Source: a virus. From it: a stretch of DNA of 49,163 nt. The stretch spans positions 1 through 49,163 of the IMG/VR virus record IMGVR_UViG_3300005527_002496, one strand, 5' to 3'. Of the stretch, positions 948 through 43,741 are shown piece after piece; positions within the stretch are counted from its first letter, which is position 1, and each line of letters opens with the position of its first letter. A program made the translations under genes and the position numbers. The notes below the pieces were generated by a model that did no database searches, was not told where the DNA came from, and saw nothing but the letters and a program-made list of their open reading frames with translations.

Positions 948-3900
948 CGTACTTTGAGTTTTTTGGCGTCTTCAAGCTGCTTCACAGCTTCGTCAAATTT
1001 AGCACTTACCTCGGCAAGCTTGGGGTTTTCACGAAGAAGGTCGTCTATCTCCTTCTGAGTTTTATTCTTGGTGCCTGCGTGAGTCGTACCTTTTAAGTTG
1101 TCTCGCAACTTGGCAAGCTTTTGGAATAAAGCCACGGTCTTTGCCTTGGGTTCGGCCACCGTTACAGGCTCTGCTACTGGCTTTGGAGCAGGCTTGGCCG
1201 CTGGCTTGGCCGCTGGCTTGGGTTCGTAGATGTAAGGAACTTCAATGTTGTTCTCCGTTACAATCGTTTGGAACTCAATGTCAAACTCATCCTGCGGAAT
1301 CTCTCCAAGCTCCAACTTGGCCACATGAATAGCCGCATCGATTGAAAGGTCGTCATCAAGAATGGTGATCTTCTTTCCGCCGGGCAGGGTGATATTGGCA
1401 ACAGAAGCCAGAGGCCCGGTTGTCCGATTCTCAATGCCAGCGAACTGAACAGATCCGTCCACAATAGCAGCGTCGCCAATTACCACGGGCTTGAATTTCT
1501 TCACAGCGCCCATGGGCTTTTGGTAGAATACATACTGCCCGTTCTCCTTCTTGACTACCCCTTGTTTTGGCCCGGAGACTCCATCGTCGTAGGTGATGGA
1601 GATTCCTTCATCGGCTGCTGCTGCGATTGGGGTTGCCCCTCGCCTCGCCGCTTTAGGAGCCTGTTTAGGAGCTCTAACTGCAACCGCTTGGGTAGCTGTG
1701 CGAGTTTCAGTTCTTGTTCTAAATCCATAGTCCTGTAGTGTTTGAATTGAGCGTTCTACCGCAGCCTGCATTTGGCCTTTTTGCTCAGGCGTAAGGTCTT
1801 CCCTTGATTCAATGTCGTCGAAGATGCTGTAAAGTTCATCTTCAGCGGCAGCAAGCCTGTTCTCGTTGACATACTCAGCACCACGGACAGAGGCAAGCAC
1901 TGAAGAAAGCTCACTTCTGCCCGGGGCTACTACCGCTACTTCTTCTTCGGTGAGCGTTTCGGGAGCTTTAGGCCCTTGGACTCCCGGTCCCACTCCTTCA
2001 CCCCCTTCTTCCCGAGCGCCTTCTGGCCCGAGGGGCTGTGCGCCCATTTGCGCTGCTGTTCGCTTTTGTACGGCATCCGTTTGTGTTTTTAGTTGTTGTT
2101 GTTTCTTTATCAGTTCTTGCACCCTTTTCTGCACGGCAGGGTCTGCCTTGCCAAAAGACTGGATGCTTATGTTGCTTGAGCCAAGTGCGCCATCGATGAA
2201 TTGCTGGTCACCAAGGAGTCTGGTCATGCCCTCCTCGGTCTGCACCATTGGCACACCATTGGTCATGGTGATGGTGTAGTATGCACCACCTTTGTTGTTG
2301 GCGAAGTCAACAAGCCCTTGGCTTGCGGTCTTCATCCTGTCCTCCAGCACCTTCTTGGCCACTGGGTCTTGCTCTGCTTCCAGCTTGGCCCTGAGACCAT
2401 CTAGTTCGCCGGACATCGCCGTGTAGATGTACTGCCGCTGACCGTCCAGACCAAGCCTTTCTGCCTGCTCCTTGTTTTTAATTGCCGAGTCAAACCTATT
2501 TCTCAGTGCATCTCTTTCATTTTGATCAATGCTCCCATTTGCGAACATCAGATCAATTGAAGCGCGAGCCATTGAAGGATTTTCAAACACACCCTTGAGA
2601 ACCCACGCGTTCTTGTAAGAGTCGTTTACCTTATCAGCAGCACGCTGAGCCAAAAACTCATTAGCCAGACCGCTTCTTGTAGGTTCGGAGACTCCACCAA
2701 CTGCACCGATAAAACCAGCGGGACCGACAGCAACTAAGGTTTTTTTCCAGTCATTAATATCCTTTAGATCCTGACCAAGCCTATCAAATGCCCCACCACC
2801 TTCAAGGACGCTCTTCTCCGTGGACCCCTCAAACTTCTCTTGAATGGTTTCCACGCCAAGCTCAAATACGCCCTTGGCCCCCATTTGAATGGGTTTTTCA
2901 AGAGCGGTAAGTGATGCCGGAAGCTTTGAAGCAAGTTTTGATGGAAGCATCGAAAGCCCCTTCACAAATGGCATTGCTTCTGCAAACGACAGAGGGAGAT
3001 AAGCTATTTGACTTTTCAGCGTTTCCGTGCCAGCCTTATCTGCTGCCGCTGCATCTCCAGTCTCGTTGAAAACATCCTCTCTCGCACTACCAGATACCTG
3101 CCACGCATTCATCACAGCAGATGTAAGACCACCGGCCATAGCAGCGGCAGCAGGAGTTCCAAATCCAGTAGAGGCCAATGTTGCGGCGCCAACGGACGGA
3201 ATCATTGTAGCGGCAAGCTGGCCCGTCAATGTACCAAGACCCTGACCCGGAAGCCACGACTTGAAAGTACCCATGTCCACCTCCTTGGTAAAGTATCTGT
3301 TCTCCAGCCAATCACCAAGCTCGTACATGGGGCCTATGTCCTCCCCGAACGCAGCGGACATACTCTTTATGACGCCGCCAGTTGTCTTTAGATAAGAGTC
3401 AAATAAAGCTGTGTATGGATTAGCAAGCTCCTCTCGAAATCCTTTTATGCTACCGGTTACCGTTTTGTAAGAATCCTCATATGCCTGCTCAAGCTGCTTT
3501 TTAAGCTCTGGATCTTTGCTCCATTTCTGTACAATAGAAGCATTCTCTTTATTAAAAGCACTTACCTCTGCATCGTAGAGCGAATTGTAATTTTTGTTCA
3601 ACTCGCTAAATCTTGCATTGTATCCTTGAAGTATTTGCTCTTGTAACGCATTCCTTTTTTTATCGTATTCTTCTGCCGTTTTTTTGAATGATTCATTAAG
3701 CTGCGCAAGCTCAGCATTTGCAGAATCAGAATCAATTAAGCCAGAATTATATCTTTCTTGTATACTTGCATATGATTGATTATACCCCTGCTCAAGTTGT
3801 TGATTTTCAATTTTTATCTGTTCTGAAATTGGGGCAATTTCAGTCTCGTATTGTTTTCTTATTTCTTCTTGATCAAAGACATAACTTGATTTCAAAGACT

Positions 3901-14713: not shown

Positions 14714-15505
14714 TTAGTTGGTAGTAAGCTGGAACAGTTCTGCTGCGTCTTTTTGCGCGTTCATTTGCAGATTTGTCCCATCCCCTTGCTTCCAAGCGAT
14801 ATACTGCAATGCCCAGTCCGCCAGCGTGCGTTTCATGCTCTGCGGGAACTGGATCTGTGCGGTAAGGTAGTTGTTGGCGTCAAGCTCAAGCGGGTTGGCC
14901 AAGTATGCAATGGCCACCAGTTTCTGGTTGACTTGGCTCTGCGGGAGAACCCGAATTTCCCCCGTACCGCTGGAATAACTATTCGATGAGCCGTTGCCTA
15001 CGATGTAATAAGCGTAGGTGCGGCGCTTGGGCTTGTCGGCCAGCGTTTCGTTGCCGGACATGAACCGGTTGGTCCTGAGCACAGGAACCTCCTCAAGGGT
15101 CACCCGCTCCACAGGCTGACCTGAGCCGGACCATGACAGGTCGTCGCGGTAGACGCTCTGATTGGGGTTCAGGGGCAATAGGGCGGGGTTGGGCTCAACG
15201 GTTATGGGCTCGGCATAAACAGCCAGCACATTCCAAATCCCGTGGCCAAGAGAGGCAAGCAGGGCAGGGTCGCTGATTGCAACCCCGCCCTGCGAGTTCG
15301 TCTGGAACATCCTGACATAGGTCAGGTCTCGTATCGCCTCCTCTGTATTATCCCGCTGTGCCATCATAAAGCTGATGGCGGTCATCGCCCTCGACACAGC
15401 AGAGTTAATAGCAGGAATATAATCCTGAACGTCAAGATAGCGTTCGCTTCCCTCGGCATCGAGGTTGGCTTGCATTACAGTCTTCAGTTCAGGATAGGTG
15501 ATCAT
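14714..15505 (-). CDS. Neck / ring-type structural protein (263 aa)
   Basis: The protein opens with a helical region (PELKTVMQANLDAEG; NSAVSRAMTAISFMMAQRD) followed by Pro/Tyr-rich beta sequence and a closing helix (SMKRTLADWALQYIAWKQG). This resembles head-completion or ring proteins and matches its two downstream neighbours in size. A TAATTTTG promoter element overlaps the stop codon of the preceding gene. I infer a virion connector component; I cannot name a family. Confidence 0.6.
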   Translation of the reverse strand: MITYPELKTVMQANLDAEGSERYLDVQDYIPAINSAVSRAMTAISFMMAQRDNTEEAIRDLTYVRMFQTNSQGGVAISDPALLASLGHGIWNVLAVYAEPITVEPNPALLPLNPNQSVYRDDLSWSGSGQPVERVTLEEVPVLRTNRFMSGNETLADKPKRRTYAYYIVGNGSSNSYSSGTGEIRVLPQSQVNQKLVAIAYLANPLELDANNYLTAQIQFPQSMKRTLADWALQYIAWKQGDGTNLQMNAQKDAAELFQLTTN

Positions 15506-35425: not shown

Positions 35426-35449
35426 GCCCCCGGCAACACCGCCGGGGGC
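35426..35449 (+). repeat. Intercistronic GC hairpin, copy 1
   Basis: Arms GCCCCCGGC and GCCGGGGGC (nine pairs) enclose a six-base loop. It ends 17 bases before the ATG of the 83-aa gene and lacks a T-run, so it is probably not a simple terminator. Confidence 0.75.
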
Positions 35450-38932: not shown

Positions 38933-39157
38933 ATGATTAACCGCATCGGCACCCCTCTCTCGACCTTCGGGTCCAGCATCAACATTTCCCTCCCCCAGTA
39001 TGAGGGGGACAACATCTACCTCCACGTCCACTTCGCCAACGGGAACATATGCATCCCGCTGTCTGCTGACGACCTGAGTAAGCTGGCGTTCAGCTTCGAT
39101 ACAGCAGTGAAGGCCGTGGAAAATTATCCACAGGCTGTCGAAGCAACGAAAGAATGA
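38933..39157 (+). CDS. Unknown early protein (74 aa)
   Basis: A compact beta-type protein (NRIGTPLSTFGSSINISL; IYLHVHFANGNICIPLSADD) and a C-terminal helix (LAFSFDTAVKAVENYPQAV). It has the same layout (beta half, then ALS-type helix) as the 92-aa protein after the non-coding region and could be a distant relative. It follows hairpin copy 4. Near its 3' end the DNA contains one perfect DnaA-box sequence (39,124-39,132). Confidence 0.6.
   Translation: MINRIGTPLSTFGSSINISLPQYEGDNIYLHVHFANGNICIPLSADDLSKLAFSFDTAVKAVENYPQAVEATKE
39124..39132 (+). promoter_or_regulatory. Perfect DnaA-box sequence TTATCCACA
   Basis: Matches the consensus DnaA box. It lies in coding sequence just before the promoter of the structured RNA region. 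A second perfect copy is at 12,999-13,007, so it may be chance; the phage encodes a DnaA domain IV-like protein, which makes it worth noting. Confidence 0.3.
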
Positions 39158-39158
39158 C

Positions 39159-39166
39159 TATGTTTG
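39159..39166 (+). promoter_or_regulatory. Promoter of the structured non-coding region (-7 TATGTTTG)
   Basis: TATGTTTG starts two bases after the stop of the 74-aa gene. It is followed by about 400 bases with no gene, so the transcript is probably an RNA gene or very long leader. Confidence 0.6.
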
Positions 39167-39170
39167 CATG

Positions 39171-39575
39171 GTCGGTGGTCGCTCGCTGACTTTTGCTAAG
39201 GCCCCCCTTCGGTGTTTGCCCACCGGAACAAGAAGCCGGGTAGAGTTGAGCGACCAACTCCCCGGCTTCGTTCTTTCCGAGTGTACATAGCGGTTCCCCT
39301 GACCACCGCGCCCGGATGGGTGAGATAAAAGGTCAGCACACCGAGGCGTCCAACGTCACAAACCCCTGCGCTGTCCGACCAGCCGACAACAGGGTGCCCA
39401 TGCTCGTGAGAGTATCACAGCACGTTGGTCAGGCATCGTAATGGGCGATGCGGTCCTCAGGGTGGATGGTGGTTCTCCCACCTGCAAGCCTCACGGCTGA
39501 AGAGTGCGCTAAGACGCACGTCCCCCAATGCATGGGCATAGGGCTGGGTATGTCTAACTCAAAACAAACAAGACA
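39171..39575 (+). ncRNA. Candidate structured non-coding RNA (about 400 nt, or about 110 nt if terminated early)
   Basis: No credible gene fits here. Visible pairing: a nine-pair outer stem (39,232-39,240 with 39,261-39,269) with a six-pair inner stem (39,243-39,248 with 39,255-39,260) and loop AGCGAC; that loop and flanking bases are complementary to GGTCGCTC at 39,177-39,184, giving a possible pseudoknot. Further stems: CTGACC/GGTCAG (39,299-39,304 with 39,331-39,336), GCATCG/CGATGC (39,433-39,451), GGTGG/CCACC (39,468-39,482), AGCC/GGCT (39,487-39,498) and GTGCG/CGCAC (39,504-39,519). The first big stem is followed by GTTCTTTCC and could terminate a small RNA. It does not match tmRNA or RNase P by eye. 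Confidence 0.5.
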
Positions 39576-39854
39576 ATGGAAACCAAGTTCATCAAAGGGA
39601 CCAACAGCGAATCCGACATCGCCATCTCCCTGAATCAAGACAAGAGCAGCGCATTCATGACCATCTCGATCGTCACTGTTGGTGCTATTGGTCGCACCTC
39701 CCTATACCTGAACGCAGCGGGGTTGCGGGAACTGGCAAGGGAGACAATCAGGCTGGCCAATGAGATCGACCCGCCCAAGGTCGATGGTACCACAGAGACA
39801 TCCTACGAGGACTACCTTGATTGGATGTATCACAACAACGCTGTTGCGAAGTGA
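39576..39854 (+). CDS. Unknown early protein (92 aa)
   Basis: Start ATG follows an A/C-rich leader directly after the non-coding region. The protein has a beta-type N-terminal half (ESDIAISLNQDKSSAFMTI) and a helix (AAGLRELARETIRLANEID), then an acidic tail. The pattern resembles the 74-aa protein before the non-coding region. No function can be named. Confidence 0.65.
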   Translation: METKFIKGTNSESDIAISLNQDKSSAFMTISIVTVGAIGRTSLYLNAAGLRELARETIRLANEIDPPKVDGTTETSYEDYLDWMYHNNAVAK

Positions 39855-40106: not shown

Positions 40107-40285
40107 CATACAAACTCTTCTACAGGAACAAACGCAAGCCCGACGATCAGGGCGAAGGTCGTGTGGTGGCGAAGGAAGACGCCGCCTACAAGATCTGCAA
40201 GCAATCCAATGAACTCTTCCCCGGATACCACCACTGGTATGAATTGGTGGACAAGACCCAAGGCAAAGACACCACGGAGCAATGA
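40103..40285 (+). CDS. Small basic early protein (60 aa)
   Basis: A small protein (YKLFYRNKRKPDDQGEGRVV; NELFPGYHHWYELVDKTQGK) ending TTEQ. Its last codons and the start of the following Gly-rich gene match the same junction at 40,924-40,958 at 31 of 35 bases, showing that this junction was duplicated. No domain is recognised. Confidence 0.6.
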   Translation: MTYKLFYRNKRKPDDQGEGRVVAKEDAAYKICKQSNELFPGYHHWYELVDKTQGKDTTEQ

Positions 40286-40563
40286 GCACAACTATACATG
40301 ACGGCGGCGGCTACGGTTCCGGCCACGGCGACGGCTACGGCGGCGGCTACGGCTGGGGCGGCGGCTACGGCTGGGGCAGCGGCGACGGCAACGGCAGCGG
40401 CTACGGCAGCGGCTCCGGCTACGGCAGCGGCTACGGCTGGGGCAGCGGCGACGGCTACGGCGACGGCAGCGGCAACGGCAGCGGCTCCGGCAGCGGCGGC
40501 GGCGGCTACGGCGACGGCTACGGCAGCAGCTCCGGCTCCGGCTACGGCGGCGGCAAAGGATAA
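40282..40563 (+). CDS. Gly/Tyr/Ser/Asp repeat protein, copy 1 (93 aa)
   Basis: After MSTTIHDG the protein is almost only Gly with Tyr, Ser, Asp, Asn and Trp, in dipeptide units such as GYGSGSGYGSG and GDGYGDG. The start overlaps the upstream stop (ATGA) and shares its N-terminus with the second copy (MSATIHDG). Such sequences are disordered, sticky and can form condensates or gels; no function is known. The very GC-rich repeat DNA is likely prone to expansion and contraction. Confidence 0.7.
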   Translation: MSTTIHDGGGYGSGHGDGYGGGYGWGGGYGWGSGDGNGSGYGSGSGYGSGYGWGSGDGYGDGSGNGSGSGSGGGGYGDGYGSSSGSGYGGGKG

Positions 40564-40571
40564 GACAGGCG

Positions 40572-40598
40572 TTGCCTGCGGCCATAAACGGCAGGCAA
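40572..40598 (+). other. Hairpin between Gly-rich gene and DUF6948-like gene
   Basis: TTGCCTGC (40,572-40,579) and GCAGGCAA (40,591-40,598) form eight pairs around an 11-base loop. No T-run follows, so it is more likely a leader hairpin than a terminator. Confidence 0.5.
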
Positions 40599-40620
40599 AC
40601 AACAAACAACACGTAGTAAC

Positions 40621-40938
40621 ATGAGCAAGCAAGTGATCATCGACGGGGTGACCTACACAGCACAGACCCCCAGCAGTGGCGAGGTAATCGTCCGCACCTA
40701 CAGCGCCGGTGTACATATCGGAACGCTCAAAGAGCGCAACGGCAAGGAGGTGACGCTGACGAACGCCCGCCGCCTGTGGTCGTGGGCCGGGGCGTTCACC
40801 CTCTCCGCTGTGGCCACCAAAGGCGTGGACCGGGGCAACAGCCGCATCAGCGTGGCGGTGCCTGAAATCCTACTGACCGAGGCTATTGAAATCATCCCAG
40901 TCAGCAAGGGCGTGAACCTCAGCACCACCGAGCAATGA
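40621..40938 (+). CDS. DUF6948-like protein (105 aa)
   Basis: The sequence GEVIVRTYSAGVHIGTLKER, then VTLTNARRLWSWAGAFTLS and LTEAIEIIPV matches my memory of the DUF6948 family, a short beta-type protein common in phages and often followed by Gly-rich repeat genes. The function is unknown. It is sandwiched between the two Gly-rich proteins and ends with TTEQ in the duplicated junction. Confidence 0.7.
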   Translation: MSKQVIIDGVTYTAQTPSSGEVIVRTYSAGVHIGTLKERNGKEVTLTNARRLWSWAGAFTLSAVATKGVDRGNSRISVAVPEILLTEAIEIIPVSKGVNLSTTEQ

Positions 40939-43051: not shown

Positions 43052-43242
43052 TCGACAAAACAAAGAGCAAGGTTCTGTGCCAGCTTCTCAGGGAGCGCGG
43101 CCTGAAGGTGATGAGCACGGCTGTCCCCACAAGCTGGGAGCCCATCGATGAAAGGTTCAACGAACTCGTAAAACAAGAAGAGCAATGGACACAGCGGCAG
43201 GAAGGAAAGAACTCGCGTTCCAACGTGTACTCTCAGCGATAG
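43048..43242 (+). CDS. Small unknown protein (64 aa)
   Basis: KVLCQLLRERGLKVMSTAVP and ERFNELVKQEEQWTQRQEG form a short basic-acidic protein with a helical end. It overlaps the previous gene by four bases and the DnaA-like gene by 58 bases in another frame, unusually long for this genome. Either start could be later than annotated. No function can be named. Confidence 0.5.
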   Translation: MIDKTKSKVLCQLLRERGLKVMSTAVPTSWEPIDERFNELVKQEEQWTQRQEGKNSRSNVYSQR

Positions 43243-43646
43243 CCCTTGCCAACCACGAGAGCGGGATATGGATCGGGCCAAAGGAAATGATGATCAGGCG
43301 CAGATACCAGCGGTTCAGCGACTCGCGCCATATCGCCATGCACATTTTGTATAACCATTTCGGCATGAGCACCACCGAGGTGGCCAAGCGGTTCGGCCTT
43401 GTCAACCACAGCACCGTGGTCCATGGCAAGAAGATCATCGTGGACAAGGTGATGTTCGACGGGGTGCTGTCCAAGGTGTTCCAGCGAACGCTTGATCTTT
43501 TGGGAATACCCAAGGAGAGTTCAATGAAATTCGCTTCCTTTACCCGCCCGGAAGTGGAAGATCAGTACAACGAGAAGTTGAGGGCGACCAAGAAGCTTCG
43601 TCGTCTTGGTGTACTACCAACTAATAAGAAGCGCAAGGGCAAGTAA
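43185..43646 (+). CDS. Standalone DnaA domain IV-like DNA-binding protein (153 aa)
   Basis: Residues about 40-95 match the DNA-binding domain IV of DnaA: SDSRHIAMHILYNHFGMST, TTEVAKRFGLVNHSTVVHGK, with NHSTVVH (74-80) equivalent to the DnaA signature (DHTTV-H). The AAA+ domain of DnaA is absent. Family knowledge: such standalone domains are seen in phages and may bind DnaA-box-like sites for origin recognition or regulation. The C-terminus is Lys/Arg-rich. It lies just upstream of the tRNA and helicase genes. Confidence 0.75.
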   Translation: MDTAAGRKELAFQRVLSAIALANHESGIWIGPKEMMIRRRYQRFSDSRHIAMHILYNHFGMSTTEVAKRFGLVNHSTVVHGKKIIVDKVMFDGVLSKVFQRTLDLLGIPKESSMKFASFTRPEVEDQYNEKLRATKKLRRLGVLPTNKKRKGK

Positions 43647-43651
43647 GTACA

Positions 43652-43724
43652 GGGCCTATAGCTCAGCGGTCAGAGCAGGGGACTCATAATCCCTTGGTCG
43701 CAGGTTCAAATCCTGCTGGGCCCA
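43652..43724 (+). tRNA. tRNA-Ile2 (anticodon CAU)
   Basis: A complete cloverleaf: acceptor GGGCCTA/TGGGCCC (one G-U), D-stem GCTC/GAGC, anticodon stem GGGGA/TCCCT with loop CTCATAA, T-stem GCAGG/CCTGC with loop TTCAAAT. The anticodon is CAU; the loop and the TTGGTCGC variable region match bacterial tRNA-Ile2, whose C34 is changed to lysidine to read AUA. An elongator tRNA-Met is the alternative. CCA is not encoded. Confidence 0.85.
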
Positions 43725-43741
43725 CAACTAAAAAGCAAGCC

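Follow-up and report, generated by a model that had tools for sequence, protein, structure and literature searches.

A candidate gene for a new, two-module structured RNA in phages of Bacteroidota

An RNA gene in two modules

The window, meaning the whole stretch of DNA analysed here, is a virus record of 49,163 bases. At positions 39,159-39,554 it appears to carry the gene for a new trans-acting phage RNA, the output of which would be set by a self-matching kissing-loop terminator; from sequence comparison we put the probability of this reading at roughly 0.6. The gene consists of two modules. Module 1 (39,167-39,276) contains two hairpins whose loops are complementary; the second hairpin resembles a terminator. 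Module 2 (39,270-39,554, about 270 nt in the window clade) is compact: it has a three-way junction and an invariant core hairpin, and two long-range pairings turn it into a multiple pseudoknot. Eight further lineages of phage contigs proved to carry homologues, one of the carriers being the cultured Flavobacterium phage FL-1. Outside the core the primary sequences of the homologues are almost unalike, and the main helices are kept by compensatory change. We regard it as close to certain that these sequences form a real structured RNA family. The homologues, the compensatory pairing and the loop pseudoknot support the candidate phage RNA gene put forward in the original prediction. We call the family new, as an undescribed class of structured RNA; our search of the open-licence literature returned no description of it, and a description elsewhere is possible. 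Its hosts are presumably Bacteroidota, judging from the promoter type and from FL-1.

The locus in the window

The window phage encodes a P22-type portal, a DnaB helicase and a protein with a DnaA C-terminal domain. As had been predicted, a promoter element directly follows a stop codon: TATGTTTG, which matches the Bacteroidota sigma-ABfr -7 consensus TAnnTTTG (PMC7366714), begins one base past the stop codon (39,155-39,157) of the 38,933-39,157 gene. The bare motif is common in the window (22 found vs 15 expected) and a clear -33 TTTG is absent upstream of TATGTTTG there; every lineage has the same element, replaced by TATGTTCG in G012, at 120-267 nt upstream of the core. In FL-1 the RNA (region 3.69-4.2 kb) is predicted to start just after TACATTTG. 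No convincing ORF was found between the 38,933-39,157 gene and 39,576, which agrees with the gene-free stretch of about 400 bases first described. The extent first given (39,159-39,575) does contain the RNA gene, but the real 3' end lies near 39,554 (Table 1). The gap to the following gene holds no terminator, so the window RNA may be co-transcribed with that gene.

Another phage has a relative of the 39,576 gene at L002:4584-4900; before it come a tRNA-Glu and another gap of 250 nt, which contains strong inverted repeats and is not recognisably the window RNA. A GC-rich hairpin repeat (CCCCCGGTCAACACGGGCCGGGGGCACAAC and variants) is present in the window at 35442, 36703, 38232 and 38902, and repeats of this type stand shortly before the start codons of several plus-strand genes; similar repeats occur in the sister phage L003 at 2558-2591. 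Positions 40282-40624 of the window hold a glycine-rich low-complexity repeat ORF, nearly 80% GC, with two overlapping frames open. A tRNA-Met at 43652-43725 is backed by both ARAGORN and Rfam, and an ARAGORN call of tRNA-Pro at 15131-15209 lies inside a coding gene and is without Rfam support.

Two readings of the locus that do not involve an RNA were weighed. The first, a protein-coding or decayed gene with chance folds, could draw on an ORF that reads through the RNA in G027; that frame, however, is kept in no other homologue seen, clade members differ by indels of 1, 4 and 5 nt, and the helices show pair-wise compensation. With no conserved frame across the homologues the coding reading was rejected as already refuted, and its probability is negligible. 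The second takes the region as a phage replication origin, that is, a DNA element. A cumulative GC skew minimum near 39.75 kb, a TTATCCACA box at 39124-39132 and the gene for the DnaA C-terminal domain protein at 43185-43646 would fit it, but L003, in which the RNA is absent, has the skew minimum at the same place, and DnaA boxes are at chance level (2 found vs 2.8 expected). Moreover, the compensatory changes fit pairing within one RNA strand, and the homologues lie elsewhere in other genomes. The origin was rejected on account of the L003 skew minimum and the box count, and we consider it very improbable.

Table 1. Features of the RNA gene and the following gene (window positions)
Feature	Position	Strand	Evidence or remark
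sigma-ABfr type -7 promoter element, TATGTTTG (TAnnTTTG)	39159..39166	+	sequence; recurs upstream of homologues
Hairpin A, loop carries GGTCGCTC (39,177-39,184)	39170..39191	+	folds; complementary to hairpin B loop
Hairpin B, terminator-like, loop carries GAGCGACC (39,248-39,255)	39232..39269	+	fold z -5.6
GTTCTTT, U-rich tail of hairpin B and conserved start of module 2	39270..39276	+	identical in 5/5 window-clade homologues
P1 5' strand, pairs with 39,549-39,553	39285..39289	+	
P2 hairpin GCGGT/ACCGC, loop carries P3 5' strand	39290..39309	+	one pair changed on both sides in G012
P3 CTGACC (39,299-39,304)/GGTCAG (39,331-39,336), H-type pseudoknot with P2	39299..39336	+	
P4, three-way junction, CCAACGT/ACGTTGG (39,350-39,356/39,422-39,428)	39350..39428	+	partner swap 1/20,000
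P5, invariant core hairpin, CCCUG-CGC-UGUC[loop]GACA-A-CAGGG	39364..39394	+	
P5 loop CCAGCC, pairs with GGCTGG 39,542-39,547 (PK)	39379..39384	+	partner swap 2/20,000; two clade double changes
P8 5' strand GCCCATG, pairs with CATGGGC 39,531-39,537	39396..39402	+	partner swap 1/20,000
P6 mini-hairpin CTC-GTGA-GAG, GNRA loop	39403..39412	+	
Variable domain between P4 and P8, several local hairpins	39429..39530	+	poor alignment even within clade
3' motif (CATGGGCATAGGGCTGGGTATGTC): P8 3' strand, PK strand, P1 3' strand	39531..39554	+	
Next gene, 92 aa, no family match	39576..39854	+	starts 22 nt past RNA end

Homologues in other phages

Nearer relatives were gathered by their portal protein and their records were then searched with the RNA. 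Identity to the window RNA is 83% over the whole length in G023 and G024, 81% in G027, and 88% over the core in G012. The syntenic neighbouring genes are only about 70-74% identical vs 81-83% for the RNA, which is therefore better conserved than its neighbours. Searching with a core pattern added L051 and then the distant lineages L058 (with L082 and L087), L060 and L075, and a relaxed form of the pattern added L099, L101 and L105. BLAST with L105 led to FL-1 (KY421186.2; PMC5465603), in which the RNA fills an unannotated 1,063-nt gap past the terminase gene. Upstream of the RNA in the same gap (L112:2750-3220) are more promoter-terminator units, in which hairpins with T tracts follow TATATTTG elements; these may be further small RNAs. 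Most of the homologues come from metagenome contigs, and near-identical sequences were counted once.

Of 31 records, 12 contain the core hairpin pattern, each of them once, and none contains the reversed pattern. Matches to it in bacterial genomes (L054-L056) and in phages MT836736 and MT835551 were rejected as coding or chance matches. Phage and plasmid collections yielded nothing useful when searched by BLAST with the window RNA. By model and pattern the RNA is absent from the cultured Bacteroidota phages FCL-2, phi46:3, phi10:1, phi40:1, B40-8, crAss001, 11b, 6H, CRP19 and PM93P1. The sister phages L003 and L006 share neighbouring genes with the window and are without the RNA at the equivalent place. 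In L003 that site (2863-3740) holds two genes of W-Y-V-N-G-x-L/R-H-R-x-D-G-P repeats, MORN-like by eye.

Fold and covariation of module 2

The elements of module 2 keep a fixed order and spacing across the lineages. P4 has its strands 11-16 nt upstream and 19-48 nt downstream of the core, the P8 5' strand comes 1-7 nt past the core, and the P8 3' strand lies within 7 nt of the 3' motif, with which the core loop pairs. The core hairpin has the family consensus CUG-CKC-UGUC...GACA-A-CAG, and the identity of the distant homologues in this segment is partly circular, as they were chosen by the core motif. The long-range pairings played no part in that choice and are free of such circularity; their strands differ from lineage to lineage and remain complementary (Table 2). 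The smaller helices vary as well: P3 is GTCAAT/ATTGAC in L058 (by inspection) and weak in G012, and P6 is CTC-GAAA-GAG in L058, GC-GUAA-GC in L101 and absent in FL-1.

Table 2. Paired strands by carrier (5' strand/3' strand)
Carrier	P4	PK	P8	Module 1 loops
Window	CCAACGT/ACGTTGG	CCAGCC/GGCTGG	GCCCATG/CATGGGC	GGTCGCTC/GAGCGACC (also L051)
G024				TGATTGCAGCA/TGCTGCAATCA
G012	CCTGCGT/ACGCAGG	CCGTCC/GGACGG	ACCCATG/CATGGGT	
L058	CTTGAT/ATCAAG	ATCCCC/GGGGAT	TCCGTGAAA/TTTCACGGA	
L060	GTTTATG/CATAAAC	ACCAGCC/GGCTGGT	CCCAA/TTGGG	GGGAGAGAATT/AATTCTCTCCC
L105	AATATCCC/GGGATATT	ACCAGCC/GGCTGGT	CCAAC/GTTGG	GTTGCGG/CCGCAAC
L101	CCTTACT/AGTAAGG	ACAAGCC/GGCTTGT	CACCATAA/TTATGGTG	
L075	AATCC/GGATT	CCTCC/GGAGG	CTGAAA/TTTCAG	GTCTGGCTGG/CCAGCCAGAC
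L099	AGTCC/GGACT			GTGTAGAGAG/CTCTCTACAC
FL-1	GATCGT/ACGATC	TACCT/AGGTA	CAAGT/ACTTG	GGGCTGAA/TTCAGCCC

Pairing was tested by swapping partners among eight lineages over 20,000 permutations, using windows set by position and not by the paired strings. Swapped partners equalled own partners in 1 (P4), 1 (P8) and 2 (PK) of the permutations. The alignment of the window clade has 240 pair cells, of which 97.9% are paired, and 7 pairs are changed on both sides vs a shuffled mean of 1.4; sliding the partner by 1-3 columns lowers pairing to 30-40%. Compensation is thus seen both across the lineages and within the clade. When a covariance model was built from window-clade sequences only, it gave full-length matches to L060 (4e-6), L105 (1.6e-5) and L058 (4.6e-5) and local matches to L101, L075 and FL-1 (2.7e-4 to 0.04), and chance core matches scored worse (0.35 and 1.7). 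Because the tested loci had been chosen by the core motif, this test is supportive and not blind.

Folding energy alone would have left only the first 120 nt standing, and comparison decided the rest. Against dinucleotide shuffles, 39,167-39,290 has a z of -3.6 and 39,222-39,276 a z of -5.6, with 0 of 200 shuffles as stable, but the 3' two thirds of the stretch is unremarkable (z -1.0 to +0.1). The chain of stable stems reported earlier accordingly holds by energy in the 5' part; the remaining stems, unremarkable in energy, are proven by covariation.

Kissing hairpins of module 1

Loop AGCGAC of the second hairpin (39,249-39,254) had been noted as complementary to a site near the 5' end. The pairing comprises 9 bp and not 6, joining TGGTCGCTC (39,176-39,184) with GAGCGACCA (39,248-39,256), and it covaries between G024 and the window. 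The carriers of module 1, which follows the promoter, are the window, G024, L051, L060, L105, L075, L099 and FL-1; its upstream element is a hairpin loop in most carriers and complements the loop of the second hairpin, which ends in a T-rich tract. This kissing-loop architecture recurs in six lineages with loops that differ and are always complementary (Table 2), and partner swapping matches the observed score in 2 of 20,000 permutations. The module is missing in G027, G012 and L058, where the promoter closely precedes the T-rich beginning of module 2, and is thus an optional part; L101 gives no clear case.

A possible internal termination at about 39,279 had also been proposed, and it finds a parallel in the homologues. 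In L075, L105 and FL-1 the second hairpin is followed by 7-8 T, as in a classic intrinsic terminator. In the window the U-tail itself is weak (GTTCTTT), and a scan for consensus terminators calls none at hairpin B; termination here is a prediction.

Close relatives show how the loops change. Between L051 and G024 both hairpin stems are identical and both loops are changed to complementary sequences. Between L075 and L099, identity is 94% in module 2 and 98% in the upstream flank but falls to 51% in module 1; of the 21 differences in module 2, 8 affect the pseudoknot loop and the strand that it pairs with, and another two make up a compensatory P4 pair. Such in-step changes in otherwise near-identical RNAs constitute a rare natural record of coevolving RNA-RNA recognition.

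Genomic position and orientation

Across the family the RNA is found amid unrelated neighbours, at varying sites and in differing orientations. It occupies the same operon site in the window, G024, L051 and G027. In G012 it stands at a site equivalent to window ~31.8-32.9 kb, despite a portal that is 92% identical. L075 and L099 carry it in convergent orientation to the next gene; in L101 it follows a tape-measure-like gene (by eye), and in L060 and L105 it adjoins ORFs from which it is divergent and which are repressor-like by eye only. A strong terminator lies ~45 nt past the 3' end of the RNA in L060. Only the L101 and L105 records contain a Pfam integrase, and only FL-1 an HTH_3 domain. 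The varied position and orientation argue for an independent transcription unit and not an operon leader, and we judge the former very probable from these arrangements.

The HK022 put RNA, about 65 nt long, is a cis-acting element found where early operons begin. The window family resembles it as phage RNA hairpins just past a promoter, and a cis-acting leader was weighed in which the nascent early RNA makes polymerase ignore terminators (as HK022 put or lambda nut) or attenuates its operon. The window-clade RNA does lie between a promoter and a same-strand operon; in L060 and L105 it is placed, relative to the repressor-like ORFs, where early lytic transcription would start, and L060 has its terminator downstream. 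Yet put and nut stand at the 5' end of the operon that they control and on the same strand, which is not the arrangement found in L075 and L099, where the RNA points against the next gene, nor in L101 and FL-1, where it lies in late-gene regions. The different site in G012 and a fold far larger than put also speak against a leader, and unlike put the window-family RNA often does not head an operon. A leader is improbable on this evidence; the independent, trans-acting RNA is the reading that we prefer.

Proposed mechanism

In this model the host RNA polymerase would transcribe the RNA from its own TAnnTTTG promoter. Some transcripts would stop at hairpin B and yield a short RNA of ~110 nt, and others would read through to a long RNA. 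Kissing of loops A and B would tune termination at hairpin B and so set the dose of module 2, which would work in trans, its invariant core binding a conserved host factor. That the paired UGUC/GACA bases and the internal-loop A and CKC stay constant while other helices vary suggests recognition by a host protein or RNA, part of this constancy being built in by the search pattern. An RNA kept by very different phages of one phylum would, moreover, have to serve against or with a shared host machine. That the RNA acts in trans seems probable from these comparisons; for module 1 as a kissing-loop attenuator the odds appear even.

A bolder view of module 1 makes it a self-recognition device. Loop A of existing RNAs would bind loop B of new transcripts of the same type and switch termination before module 2, and the loops would define types of incompatibility or superinfection immunity. 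This is rather unlikely, and we keep it and do not dismiss it because the loops switch in step (L051/G024; L075/L099). If true, it would be an RNA-only immunity system, undescribed for Bacteroidota phages, with a new trans-acting RNA as its output.

Comparison with known RNAs

At the Rfam 15 gathering score no RNA match other than tRNAs was obtained in the window or in L040, L051, L058, L060, L075, L082, L099, L101 and L105, and permissive scans gave unrelated chance families only. Nothing thus rises above chance in either search, in keeping with the original impression that the RNA is neither tmRNA nor RNase P RNA. A tmRNA identity was rejected on negative ARAGORN and Rfam results for the window RNA, and RNase P RNA for want of an Rfam match. 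A complete, divergent tmRNA (82.6 bits) does occur in a distant phage lineage, at L009:5587-5945 and also in L010 and L011, ~100 nt past a homologue of the window 37,110-38,195 gene; ARAGORN gives it an unusual 26-residue tag ending QLVA.

In copy-control loops of the ColE1 and IncFII type, both sides change together between near-identical relatives, as incompatibility types. The loop pairs of the window family likewise switch in step, but they stand in tandem on one strand and not as sense and antisense, and there is no plasmid replication gene; an opposite-strand TAnnTTTG promoter was not found within module 1. In the RNA immunity of phage P4, pairing of the CI RNA or termination picks a short RNA vs a longer transcript. 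Gifsy-1 IsrK RNA likewise has isoforms (PMC4825925). Both are phage RNAs in which pairing or termination chooses between short and long transcripts, as proposed here; they differ in that another structured RNA lies downstream of the terminator in the window family, and no sequence match to them was found.

The loops of phi29 pRNA are mutually complementary between molecules and vary between phages. Here too loops are complementary with a sequence free to change, and we asked how far the window RNA might form dimers or rings by intermolecular pairing, in an RNA-only or RNA-protein assembly, as do phi29 pRNA, GOLLD and ROOL. The freely changing, ever complementary loop pairs would suit such an assembly, in the manner of pRNA. 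However, the loops can also pair within one molecule, no symmetry or repeated motif was found, and pRNA itself differs in fold and gives no Rfam match, the window family being carried by genomes of P22-portal type and of myophages. Oligomers are accordingly doubtful, and the single trans-acting RNA remains our preferred reading.

GOLLD and ROOL, both large and ornate RNAs, assemble into homo-oligomers (PMC12286853). Rfam scans of the window and its homologues matched neither family. They share with the window RNA a highly structured, pseudoknotted, phage-carried form without a known job, and for years GOLLD and ROOL stayed without a function. The window RNA differs from them in its smaller size (270-450 nt), another core, Bacteroidota hosts and a terminator-like module in front. 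With this smaller size, a cultured carrier in FL-1 and sharp predictions, it is open to direct test.
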